DNA of 35,970 nucleotides. Source: Candidatus Equadaptatus faecalis. Its GTDB lineage: Bacteria > Synergistota > Synergistia > Synergistales > Synergistaceae. Both the position numbers and the translations under genes were made by a program. The notes below the pieces were generated by a model. That model was not told the origin of the DNA. It saw only the letters and a list, made by a program, of their open reading frames with translations, and did not search any database. The stretch is taken from the NCBI GenBank assembly GCA_018065065.1, contig JAGHTZ010000003.1, positions 1 through 35,970 of the forward strand, in the 5' to 3' direction. This document shows, one piece after another, positions 24,229-28,522 of the stretch (positions within the stretch are counted from its first letter, which is position 1; every line of letters starts with the position of its first letter).

Positions 24229-26166
24229 TTATTTTATGCTGTCAATCTTCCCTGATATTTCTTCCAGAGAAGCGTAATTTTTTTCCAGCAGTTGTTCGAG
24301 TTTTTTAAACTCAATTATTGTTTGCGAAACTAAAGTTGAATTTTTTAGAAATTCCGAGTCGCACAGTTTTTCAGAGAGATTGTTTTTCTCGGCTTCCTGC
24401 TGTGTTATTTCTTTTTCAAGTTTCTCCTGCTCTTCCAAATATTTCTTTCTGCTTCGGAAAAGCCTGTTCCTTTCTTCAGCCTCTGCCCGTTTTTGTTCTT
24501 TGGTTTTAGACGGTTCCGGCTGTTTTGTCTGTCCTGAAATTTCTTTTCCTTCCTCTTCAAGTTTTGCGCGTCGTTCTATAAAGTACGAATAATTTCCTTT
24601 GTAGTCATAAAGCCTTCCGTTTCTGATTTCCAAAACGCGCGAAACAAGGTTATCCAAAAACGCGCGGTCGTGGGAAACAATAAGGATAGTACCGCCATAT
24701 GAAAGAAGCGCCTTTTGGAACAATTCTTTTGTGCTGTAGTCAAGATGGTTGGTAGGCTCATCCAAAATCAGAAGGTTGGAAGGGGAAAGAAGCATTTTAA
24801 GAAGTCCTATTCTCGACTTTTCTCCCCCTGACAAGACGGAAATCTTCTTATATATATCATTTCCCGAGAAGAGAAAAGCACCGAGCAGACTGCGTCTGGC
24901 AGGAGCTTCCATAGTTGAACCCGTTGCCGAAATTTCTTCCCATACCGTTTTGTTGTAATCAAGATTCTGCGAGGACTCCTGGGAGAAATATTTCCTTTTA
25001 ACGTTTGTTCCGAATGAAACTTCACCGGACGCAGGCTCCTCTGTTTTGTTAAGAAGCCGCAGCAGGGTAGATTTTCCTGCACCGTTTACACCTACCAGCG
25101 CAACCCTCTCTCCCCGCTGGACAGAAAAATCCACATTGTCAAAAACCAGATTATCACCATACTGCTTTTTCAGTGACGTGGCGGAAACAACATCAAGTCC
25201 GCTTCTCGGCGCATCGGGAAATTTAAACGAAACTGTTTTATGAGCAGCTTCAACGTCGGTTATTTCAAGCTTTTCAAGCTGTTTTATCCTGCTTTGAACC
25301 TGTGCGGCTTTGGTTGCTTTATAGCGGAAACGCTCTATGAAATGCTGCATTTCCTCAATTTTTTCCTTCTGCTGCTCGCGTTCTGCCTCAAGTCTTGCGC
25401 GCCGTGCTTCGCGTTCGGAAAGGTATTTGTCGTAACCCATGGAATAGGTTGTGATTTTTCCAAAAGACAGTTCTGCAACAGATGTAACCATGTTTTCAAG
25501 AAATCTTTTGTCGTGGGAAACGGCTATCATTGTACCGCGGAAATCTCTAAGCCAGCCTTCCAGCCATTCCATACTTTCCGTATCCAGATGGTTGGTAGGT
25601 TCGTCGAGAAGCAGCAGGTCAGGCTCTGACAAAAGCAGAGCTGCAAGTGCAATACGCATTTTCCAGCCGCCTGAAAATTCAGACGTTCTTCTTTTTATGT
25701 CGTGTTCGGGGCGGAAACCGAGACCTTTGAGCACCTTTACTGCTTCTGTTTCAAATTTATACCCTCCGCGTGCGTCAAATTCGCGCTGCAGCTTTTCGTA
25801 AACCGCAAGCCTGCCGCACAGTTCAGGAGAGTTTTCTTCCAGCTCCGCAAGTTCTGCTTCAGCCTCCCCCAGTTTTTTCCTGATTTCGTCAAGTCCTGCG
25901 CTTGTATATAAGAAGGAAAGCAGCGGAGCATCATCAATCTCGACCAGATCCTGCGGCAGATAACCTGTTCTGGCTGCTTTTCCCGAAAAAACAACAGATC
26001 CGTCGTCATATTCCTGAAGACCTGCAAGTACACGCAGCATGGTAGTTTTTCCTACCCCGTTGCCGCCGACAAGCCCTACCCTGCTTTTGGGGGCAATAAA
26101 CCAGTCGGTGCCGTTAAGCACAACCTGCTCTCCAAAATTGATTTTGAGACCGCGAATTGTAATCAT
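24229..26166 (-). CDS. ABC-F family ATP-binding protein
   Basis: A 645-residue soluble protein with two ABC ATPase domains and no membrane part, typical of ABC-F factors that act on the ribosome. Domain 1 has Walker A GGNGVGKTT (about 34-42) and FSGGWKMRIALAALL with LLLLDEPTNHLD. A charged linker of about 80 residues (REARRARLEAEREQQKEKIEEM) corresponds to the P-site tRNA interaction motif. Domain 2 has GVNGAGKST and LSGGEKSRIGLLKMLL with LLILDEPTNHLD. A C-terminal coiled coil of about 85 residues (QEKLEKEITQQEAEKNN) is like that of Uup/YdiF-type members. A translation or ribosome-rescue role is likelier than antibiotic resistance, since no macrolide-type context is present. Confidence 0.92.
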   Translation of the reverse strand: MITIRGLKINFGEQVVLNGTDWFIAPKSRVGLVGGNGVGKTTMLRVLAGLQEYDDGSVVFSGKAARTGYLPQDLVEIDDAPLLSFLYTSAGLDEIRKKLGEAEAELAELEENSPELCGRLAVYEKLQREFDARGGYKFETEAVKVLKGLGFRPEHDIKRRTSEFSGGWKMRIALAALLLSEPDLLLLDEPTNHLDTESMEWLEGWLRDFRGTMIAVSHDKRFLENMVTSVAELSFGKITTYSMGYDKYLSEREARRARLEAEREQQKEKIEEMQHFIERFRYKATKAAQVQSRIKQLEKLEITDVEAAHKTVSFKFPDAPRSGLDVVSATSLKKQYGDNLVFDNVDFSVQRGERVALVGVNGAGKSTLLRLLNKTEEPASGEVSFGTNVKRKYFSQESSQNLDYNKTVWEEISATGSTMEAPARRSLLGAFLFSGNDIYKKISVLSGGEKSRIGLLKMLLSPSNLLILDEPTNHLDYSTKELFQKALLSYGGTILIVSHDRAFLDNLVSRVLEIRNGRLYDYKGNYSYFIERRAKLEEEGKEISGQTKQPEPSKTKEQKRAEAEERNRLFRSRKKYLEEQEKLEKEITQQEAEKNNLSEKLCDSEFLKNSTLVSQTIIEFKKLEQLLEKNYASLEEISGKIDSIK

Positions 26167-26206
26167 GTATTTTTCCTCCCGGCTATTATAACAAAGAAAT
26201 TTCCGG

Positions 26207-26336
26207 AATAAGCAGTAAATTTTTTGTAAAACAGATAAAAAATTATGCTTAATTTAACAAAAAACACCAAATAAGCAGAAAAATTATAAAAATAAGCAGC
26301 AAAAACACTTGAAATTTATGCTTAATAATGTATAAT
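26207..26336 (+). promoter_or_regulatory. glnN promoter with repeated TAAGCA operator motif
   Basis: The promoter is TTGAAA (26309-26314), a 16-base spacer and TATAAT (26331-26336). Five copies of a TAAGCA-core motif surround it: AATAAGCAG at 26207, 26270 and 26291, and the reverse form TTATGCTTAAT at 26243 and 26316. The last copy lies between -35 and -10. The copies are 21-36 bases apart. This looks like a multi-site operator for a nitrogen or glutamine-sensing repressor. The regulator is unknown. Confidence 0.65.
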
Positions 26337-26374
26337 ACAGTAGCAACGGAATAAAACTTTTTGGAGGTGCTGCA

Positions 26375-28522
26375 ATGTCAGAACAAAAAAAATACCCGAA
26401 CATGCGGGAAATTTTTGCTTCGTTGGTTTTTGACCGCAGAGAAATGAAACATCGGCTTCCGCAGGACGTTTATGAAAATCTTATAGGCGCGATGGAAGGC
26501 AGACAGAAAATAGATTCCGGAATTGCCGACACAGTTGCTCTTGCAATGAAAGACTGGGCTGTAAGCAACGGAGCAAGCCACTGGGCACACTGGTTCCACC
26601 CTCTTCATGAGCACACGGCTGAAAAACACACCGCATTTCTTACAGCCGACGCAGAAGGGGCGCCAATAGAGCTTTTCAGAGGAAAAGATCTTATGCAGAG
26701 TGAACCCGACGCCTCCTCCTTCCCCTCGGGCGGAACAAGAAGCACCTTTGAAGCAAGAGGATATTCCGCATGGGATCCGACATCTCCGGCATTCATCATC
26801 AAAAGCCCAAAAGGCGGAACCCTGTGTATTCCCTCTGTTTTTATCGCTTACGACGGTTCCCCGCTTGATTTGAAGACGTACCTTCTCCGTTCGCTTGACG
26901 CTGTCGAAAGCAGGGCGCTGAAGCTGCTTAAGCTTTTCGGAAACAGGGGAGTGCGCTACGTCAGGGCAACGCTCGGCGGAGAGCAGGAATTCTTCCTGCT
27001 TGACAGACCTCGTGCGCAGAAACGCCCAGACCTGCGTTTCTGCGGAAGAACCCTGATAGGTTCAAAGCCGCCGCGTGACCAGAAAATGGAAGACCATTAT
27101 TTCGGAACAATTCCGCCAAAGGTACTTGCTTATATGGAAGACGTACAGCGCGATCTGGCGCGTCTCGGGGTGGACCTTGCAACGCGCCACAATGAGGCTG
27201 CGCGCTGCCAGTTTGAATTTGCCCCGAATTTCTCAGAGGCAAATCTTGCCTGTGACCAGAACCAGATAATTATGGAAACGATGCGCAAGCTTGCGAGTCA
27301 GCATGATTTGCGGCTTCTTTTCCACGAAAAACCTTTTGACTGCTTGAACGGCAGCGGAAAACACACAAATTTCTCTCTTGAAGACAGTGAAGGCCGCAAC
27401 CTTCTGAAACCGTCGACAAACCACAGAAAGAATGTGATTTTTCTCTCGTTCCTGACTTCGTTTGTCTTTGGTGCTTCAGAATACAGCGGACTTCTTCAGG
27501 CATCGGTTTCAACGCCGGGCAACCTTTACAGGCTTGGCGGACAGGAAGCACCCCCTTTTATAATGAGCGTCTATCTTGGCGACACCATAGACAGAATGCT
27601 TACTGCCGTTGAAAAAGCAGCAGGCAGGGACGAAGATATGCCCGAGAAGAGCACGCTTGACCTCGGTCTTGACAAACTGCCTACGATAATCGCATACGAC
27701 AGCGACAGAAACAGGACAAGCCCGATTGCTTTTACAGGAAACAAATTTGAATTCCGCGCTCCCGGAGCGTCGCAGGCCATGGCAATTCCGGCAACCTTCA
27801 TATTTGCAATATGGGCTGCGGGTCTGGAAAAATTCAACGAAAAATTCAGCGCGCGCCTTAAAAAAGGCGCAGACGTACTTGACGCTGCTCTTGCAACAAT
27901 CCGCGAAGTTTCAAAAGCAAGCCGCAAAATCCGTTTTGAAGGCGACAGCTATTCGGAAGAATGGCGCAGGGAAGCAGAAAAACGCGGCATAGTCAAGGCT
28001 GAAACGATACCGGAAGGCATTGATCTCTTCCTTGAACCAAAATCCGTTGAAATGCTGTCAAAACTCGGTGTTTTCACTCCGCGCGAAATGGAAGCATTCC
28101 ACACAATCCGGCTTGAAGCCTTTGTCAACAGCATAGAAATTGAAATTTCCCTGCTTCGTGACATGATGTTTGAAGGTTTCCTGCCGAGTATATCAAAGCA
28201 GCTGAAGCTTGAAAACGAATCGATTGCTTCGGTCAAGGACATGCGCATACCGCACATAGACGCGTGGAAAAAACACATAGAGCTGTTGGCAAAGAGCAAG
28301 GCGGAAATAATAGTAAAAACCAAAGAACTCGAACTGCTGAAAGAGAAAATGGCAGAACTTGAACCCAGGGAACATGCAGAAGCCATAATTGTTAAAGCTC
28401 TTCCGCTTATGAAGAAAATAAGAGAACTGTGTGACGAGGCCGAAGGCTATATTTCAAAAGAAAACCTTGCCTACCCGAAGTACCGCGCTCTTATGTCACT
28501 CAGCACGCAGCTCAGCGAATAG
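26375..28522 (+). CDS. glnN: Glutamine synthetase type III
   Basis: A 715-residue GSIII enzyme that makes glutamine from glutamate, ammonia and ATP as a large double-ring oligomer. GSIII marks are the long chain, the N-terminal region with SNGASHWAHWFHPLHEHTAEKH, the catalytic GGEQEFFLLDR, GSGKHTNFSLED, and the ATP-site segment NRTSPIAFTGNKFEFRAPG. The C-terminal 150 residues are helical and end in SLSTQLSE. TTGGAGGTG precedes the ATG. The upstream operator array suggests nitrogen control. pyrC follows after ten bases, so the two are cotranscribed. Confidence 0.97.
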   Translation: MSEQKKYPNMREIFASLVFDRREMKHRLPQDVYENLIGAMEGRQKIDSGIADTVALAMKDWAVSNGASHWAHWFHPLHEHTAEKHTAFLTADAEGAPIELFRGKDLMQSEPDASSFPSGGTRSTFEARGYSAWDPTSPAFIIKSPKGGTLCIPSVFIAYDGSPLDLKTYLLRSLDAVESRALKLLKLFGNRGVRYVRATLGGEQEFFLLDRPRAQKRPDLRFCGRTLIGSKPPRDQKMEDHYFGTIPPKVLAYMEDVQRDLARLGVDLATRHNEAARCQFEFAPNFSEANLACDQNQIIMETMRKLASQHDLRLLFHEKPFDCLNGSGKHTNFSLEDSEGRNLLKPSTNHRKNVIFLSFLTSFVFGASEYSGLLQASVSTPGNLYRLGGQEAPPFIMSVYLGDTIDRMLTAVEKAAGRDEDMPEKSTLDLGLDKLPTIIAYDSDRNRTSPIAFTGNKFEFRAPGASQAMAIPATFIFAIWAAGLEKFNEKFSARLKKGADVLDAALATIREVSKASRKIRFEGDSYSEEWRREAEKRGIVKAETIPEGIDLFLEPKSVEMLSKLGVFTPREMEAFHTIRLEAFVNSIEIEISLLRDMMFEGFLPSISKQLKLENESIASVKDMRIPHIDAWKKHIELLAKSKAEIIVKTKELELLKEKMAELEPREHAEAIIVKALPLMKKIRELCDEAEGYISKENLAYPKYRALMSLSTQLSE

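Follow-up and report, generated by a model that had tools for sequence, protein, structure and literature searches.

A conserved inverted repeat at the glnN promoter and a candidate nitrogen-assimilation regulon in Synergistota

The TAAGCA copies around glnN

The question raised by this locus is whether five copies of the hexamer TAAGCA, crowded around the promoter of a glutamine synthetase gene, constitute an operator, and if so, what might bind there. The window (i.e., the whole stretch of 35,970 nucleotides that was analysed) belongs to a Synergistaceae genome of 1.6 Mb in 100 contigs. The proposed regulated gene, glnN, faces away from an ABC-F family ATPase gene across an intergenic gap of 208 nt (26167-26374), which contains all five copies. 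glnN was recognised through its orthologs, with identity of up to 75%, while its matches to glutamine synthetase family HMMs were weak. The features were as follows:

24229..26166, minus strand: ABC-F family ATPase gene, divergent, on the opposite side of the intergenic region (open reading frame, HMM)
26209..26214, plus strand: outermost TAAGCA copy, near the divergent ABC-F gene; position not conserved (sequence, relatives)
26246..26251, minus strand: putative auxiliary half-site (its spacing recurs in relatives)
26272..26277, plus strand: putative accessory copy in direct orientation, preceding the left arm by two helical turns (21 bp) (sequence)
26292..26325, symmetric: putative main operator, a 34-bp inverted repeat (T/A)TAAGCA-N20-TGCTTAA over the glnN promoter (sequence, conservation, pattern counts)
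26293..26298, plus strand: left arm of the main operator, TAAGCA (sequence; conserved in relatives)
26309..26314, plus strand: predicted -35 hexamer TTGAAA, in the central gap of the operator (TTGATT/TTGACA-like hexamers aligned in relatives)
26319..26324, minus strand: right arm, TGCTTA on the plus strand, inside the -35/-10 spacer (sequence)
26331..26336, plus strand: predicted -10 hexamer TATAAT (promoter inspection, relatives)
26375..28522, plus strand: glnN, GSIII-type glutamine synthetase of 715 aa (orthologs, HMM)

The sequence-only reading had described three direct and two inverted copies near the glnN promoter, with one lying between -35 and -10. Both observations were confirmed, the latter referring to the copy at 26319, which lies in the 16-nt spacer of a near-consensus sigma-70 promoter (TTGAAA-N16-TATAAT, 26309-26336; 11/12 positions). 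Rather than five equal copies, the functional unit would be the inverted pair 26293(+)/26319(-) with its fixed 20-nt gap; this is the core of the operator, the general form of which is TTAAGCR-N20-YGCTTAA. When derived from 40 operators, the half-site was TTAAGCR followed by an A/T-rich stretch, in pairs facing each other across 20 nt. The three other copies of the five are probably accessory, and among these only that at 26246 is conserved in position, in a few other genera. Its GCTTA precedes the left-arm TAAGC by 41 nt, with equal spacing in genomes G041 and G045 and a shift of one base in G017 and G018; half-sites spaced by N41-43 were found at some promoters of the ammonium transporter gene amt too, where direct pairs of 21-22 bp, like that formed by 26272 and the left arm, also recurred. 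Having an intergenic region in common with glnN, the ABC-F gene is a candidate for co-regulation only. A search of the window against Rfam returned no riboswitch.

It had also been claimed that the cluster is hard to explain by chance. In the window as a whole, TAAGCA occurred 26 times where 22.9 were expected, so the hexamer was not over-represented and the anomaly is the cluster itself. Among 20,000 Markov shuffles of the 208-nt gap the maximum was four copies, and five were never reached; if the choice of hexamer was left free, however, a five-copy hexamer containing two or more G/C arose in 169 of the 20,000 shuffles (~0.8%). Taken alone, the cluster is therefore suggestive, and the claim of improbability was modest on this evidence; it stood once conservation was added, which we regard as decisive for a TAAGCA site.

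Tandem 7-base repeats, (TAAGCAN)n or (AAGCAAA)n, were scattered over many contigs of the same genome (e.g., L004:1460-1660 and L002:1490-1560). That the copies clustered by chance in A/T-rich DNA, or drifted from these TAAGC-rich heptamers, would be compatible both with the presence of such arrays and with the ordinary frequency of the hexamer in the window. Yet the position and spacing of the repeat were kept across genera and control matches were zero, while the arrays have a 7-bp period; this explanation is hardly credible, and the period-7 repeats are apparently unrelated to the operator.

Conservation of the repeat and its occurrence at other genes

The 34-bp inverted repeat held the same position upstream of glnN in about 11 genera of Synergistaceae, the family of the window (f1). 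For the bare core TAAGC-N22-GCTTA, the number of genera with a site upstream of glnN was 12; in 300 shuffles no spacing or orientation reached more than two. The exact sequence TAAGCA-N20-TGCTTA occurred at 19 sites in 53 genomes of the family, and 17 of these sites preceded GSIII genes; the reversed control produced 0. The looser pattern TAAGCR/YGCTTA was noisier; since it also produced control matches, its sites were judged by location. Lack of conservation upstream of glnN orthologs had been named beforehand as the result that would count against an operator, and the motif being conserved there, this outcome did not occur. Strong sites in f1 preceded glnN and a second GSIII gene (glnN2), where the repeat stood just upstream of the -35 hexamer. 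GSIII genes lacking the operator were seen in G001 and in the g22 genomes, and glnN lacked it in G050-G052 as well as G001. In G016 (93% complete), the sole further member of the window's genus in the search, glnN had no match, through either loss or an assembly gap.

The two arms showed joint A-to-G and T-to-C changes in G004, G005 and G047; as this co-change fell short of significance when all sites were counted (Fisher p = 0.08), it was left out as evidence. In some deep members of f1 (e.g., G023, G024 and G040) and some f6 genomes, and also at L114, L122 and L123, the operator repeat occurred near the start of glnN, adjoining the ribosome-binding site instead of the promoter, a placement that tells against the reading as a promoter operator; here it might serve as a downstream operator or form an RNA hairpin.

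A second Synergistota family (f6) carried the repeat before GSIII genes (L112, L127-L129, L133, L134, L140, L141, L143, L144), before genes of branched-chain-type (liv-type) amino-acid ABC transporters (L111, L113, L132, L139, L142) and before an aminotransferase gene (L182, gene type assigned by eye). The liv-type assignment was by HMM for L142, a binding protein, and by eye from sequence for the others. Related half-sites formed arrays at amt in several Synergistota genomes. This gene was divergent from GSIII in G140 and G131 (L189, L244), and from an apparent glutamate synthase gene (gltB) in several other genomes; together these divergons contained 34 half-sites, compared with 10.7 (sd 3.3) in shuffles, and a divergent half-site pair spaced by N62-63 occurred in 6 of 7 genera, where the shuffle maximum was 2. 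At L239:1396-3162 the ammonium transporter bore a C-terminal PII fusion, and similar long open frames were seen at other amt loci.

A profile search of 188 genomes had its top matches mainly at GSIII, liv-type and amt/gltB promoters; matches in G017 (C31) were discounted as chance occurrences, as were several low-scoring ones within genes. In the genome of the window this search found a site at glnN only, and no Amt was found there, so the regulon is visible in relatives and not here. A genome-wide search for further members, as the sequence-only reading had proposed, was thus productive among relatives (GSIII, glnN2, liv-type genes, amt/gltB arrays) and yielded glnN alone in the genome itself.

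Besides these genes, a perfect operator was found at L103:3763-3990 (G014), in the interval from a glutamine-synthetase-like gene to an rRNA operon. It has its own -35 and -10 hexamers and precedes an apparent short transcript that ends in a terminator-like hairpin. This is possibly a nitrogen-controlled small RNA; it had no Rfam match and was not seen in the part of G015 covered (L147).

The symmetric site was therefore observed at promoters of several nitrogen and amino-acid genes in two families, which is in keeping with the class of nitrogen-assimilation operators. We judge, with a probability of about three in four, that the site in the window is the operator of a nitrogen-assimilation regulon of Synergistota under one symmetric DNA-binding protein. 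An operator for a regulator of nitrogen assimilation is what had been proposed from the promoter itself, and the conservation at glnN, together with the sites at nitrogen and amino-acid genes of relatives, speaks in its favour. The liv-type targets could nevertheless reflect amino-acid rather than nitrogen control.

Known systems and candidate regulators

The site had been said to be unlike the usual GlnR or NtcA sites, and comparison agreed with this. GlnR/TnrA of Firmicutes is similar in exerting nitrogen control over glutamine synthetase and ammonium transport genes via inverted repeats at promoters; however, no good TGTNA-N7-TNACA site was found here, the best having 2 of 8 mismatches, and its half-sites are separated by 7 nt as opposed to 20. 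Cyanobacterial NtcA controls glnN (GSIII) in response to nitrogen and so resembles the present case in its target, but an exact GTA-N8-TAC site was absent from the window and its relatives, and matches to this 6-base motif with one or two mismatches lay off the conserved operator. NtrC and sigma-54 were rejected, the NtrC dyad having 5 mismatches and the -24/-12 promoter 4, with a sigma-70 type promoter present instead. Archaeal NrpR represses glutamine synthetase and ammonium transport genes, and is alike in these targets; it was rejected because Pfam PF01995 was above cut-off in 0/53 Synergistaceae genomes and GGAA-N6-TTCC was absent. HisR sites had no match at the window. BirA-type operators are bipartite, with two distant inverted half-sites, and the 34-bp layout of the present operator is similar, but the window differs from the BirA-type sequence by at least 7 of 18 mismatches. 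Because of this bipartite layout, HTH_11 (BirA-like) proteins were sought in the window's genome; the search returned mostly CodY, B. subtilis-type PurR, Lrp/AsnC, FapR, Rex, HrcA and RpiR, among which there was no convincing candidate. None of the transcription factor genes checked had the operator upstream.

Helically phased sites are used by Lrp-type octamers, which control amino-acid genes; an Lrp/AsnC-family regulator, such as L260 of the window's genome, might form an array on phased half-sites here, and an L260 ortholog was present throughout f1. This is nonetheless very improbable. Co-occurrence with the operator fails for the L260 orthologs, no match being found in the majority of the f6 genomes that carry the operator (G145, G146, G148-G151 and G153, some genomes without a match not being listed by name), while G147 and G152 gave matches with E>1e-4 only. 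The typical site of the family is a 15-bp palindrome, from which the main operator differs.

The window's genome has a CodY ortholog that exceeds NCBIfam cut-offs, and CodY was present in most of the phylum. L258 and L261 of this genome are a B. subtilis-type PurR-like protein and CodY, here within a Gram-negative phylum. If CodY were the protein binding here, the TAAGCA half-sites would represent a CodY site specific to this lineage, and the regulon would be that of Synergistetes CodY. CodY in Synergistetes has already been published: its regulon has AT-rich arms, variable spacers and a role in amino-acid uptake (Geng et al. 2022, PMC9318921), and it resembles the present one in phylum, in having palindromic arms separated by a spacer close to promoters, and in amino-acid transport and metabolism targets. 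The window region also contains one-mismatch matches to two of the published AT-rich consensus forms (PMC9318921). But the canonical box AATTTTCWGAAAATT differed at 4 or more positions, both in the window and in 18 relatives; the published consensus, whether AATTTTCWGAAAATT or AT-rich arms, is without TAAGC, and the word 'glutamine' is absent from the main text of the paper (PMC9318921). Moreover, CodY had no match in two near-complete genomes with perfect glnN operators, G042 (96% complete) and G153 (97%), gaps in these metagenome-assembled genomes being possible; conversely, CodY was present in G001 and G050-G052, whose glnN is without the operator. The CodY wHTH appears conserved, which argues against a new specificity. 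Altogether, we consider CodY improbable as the regulator.

Mode of action and significance

The placement of the operator relative to the promoter bears on how it may work. Its left arm started 31 nt upstream of the -10 hexamer in 16/17 f6 promoters as scored, 41 or 39 nt upstream in 15/19 f1 glnN promoters as scored (39 in the window), and about 60 nt upstream at glnN2; the remaining copies either carry a weak -35 hexamer or received a wrong score from the script. The register to the promoter is thus fixed within each group, and the steps from 31 to ~41 and ~60 nt are close to whole helical turns.

As the arms overlap or abut the -35 and -10 hexamers, repression by occlusion is the simplest reading, and a repressor is the most likely type of regulator. 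A dimeric or tetrameric protein would hold both half-sites; when nitrogen is plentiful the bound protein would block RNA polymerase, and when nitrogen is scarce it would release the DNA, allowing GSIII and the uptake systems to be made. The signal is probably glutamine or a related compound, nitrogen and glutamine being suggested by the target genes. The extra half-sites at 26209, 26246 and 26272 would probably allow further subunits to bind, tightening control.

An activator, which would bind the upstream arrays of half-sites and recruit RNA polymerase at nitrogen limitation, is an unlikely alternative that nevertheless draws on several features. Sites at glnN2 and amt were mostly upstream of -35 and so equally suited to activation; the window has three extra upstream half-sites; the register relative to -10 moves by about whole turns, and many f1 glnN promoters have imperfect -35 hexamers. 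On the other hand, the promoter of the window is near-consensus, the f6 arms abut -35 and overlap -10, and the right arm in f1 lies between the two hexamers, where binding should block polymerase.

We take the conserved operator to be authentic, and the nitrogen regulon to be apparently undescribed. Among open-licence papers on GSIII promoters, Synergistetes regulons and TAAGCA operators the site was not described, nor was a description of a nitrogen regulator for Synergistota found in that literature. Well-studied bacterial groups each use their own nitrogen regulator, and the Synergistota are anaerobes living largely on amino acids. We put at slightly better than even the odds that they have a nitrogen control of their own, in which an undescribed regulator (not GlnR, NtcA, NtrC, NrpR or CodY) would act on phased TTAAGCR half-sites to govern GSIII, amino-acid ABC transporters, the Amt-PII fusion and glutamate synthase. 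In this proposal the phasing is convergent N20, direct 21-22 bp and divergent N41 or N62-63. Now that the operator is defined and its target promoters are listed, it can serve as direct bait for the discovery of the regulator, and nitrogen control can be read from it in uncultured Synergistota.
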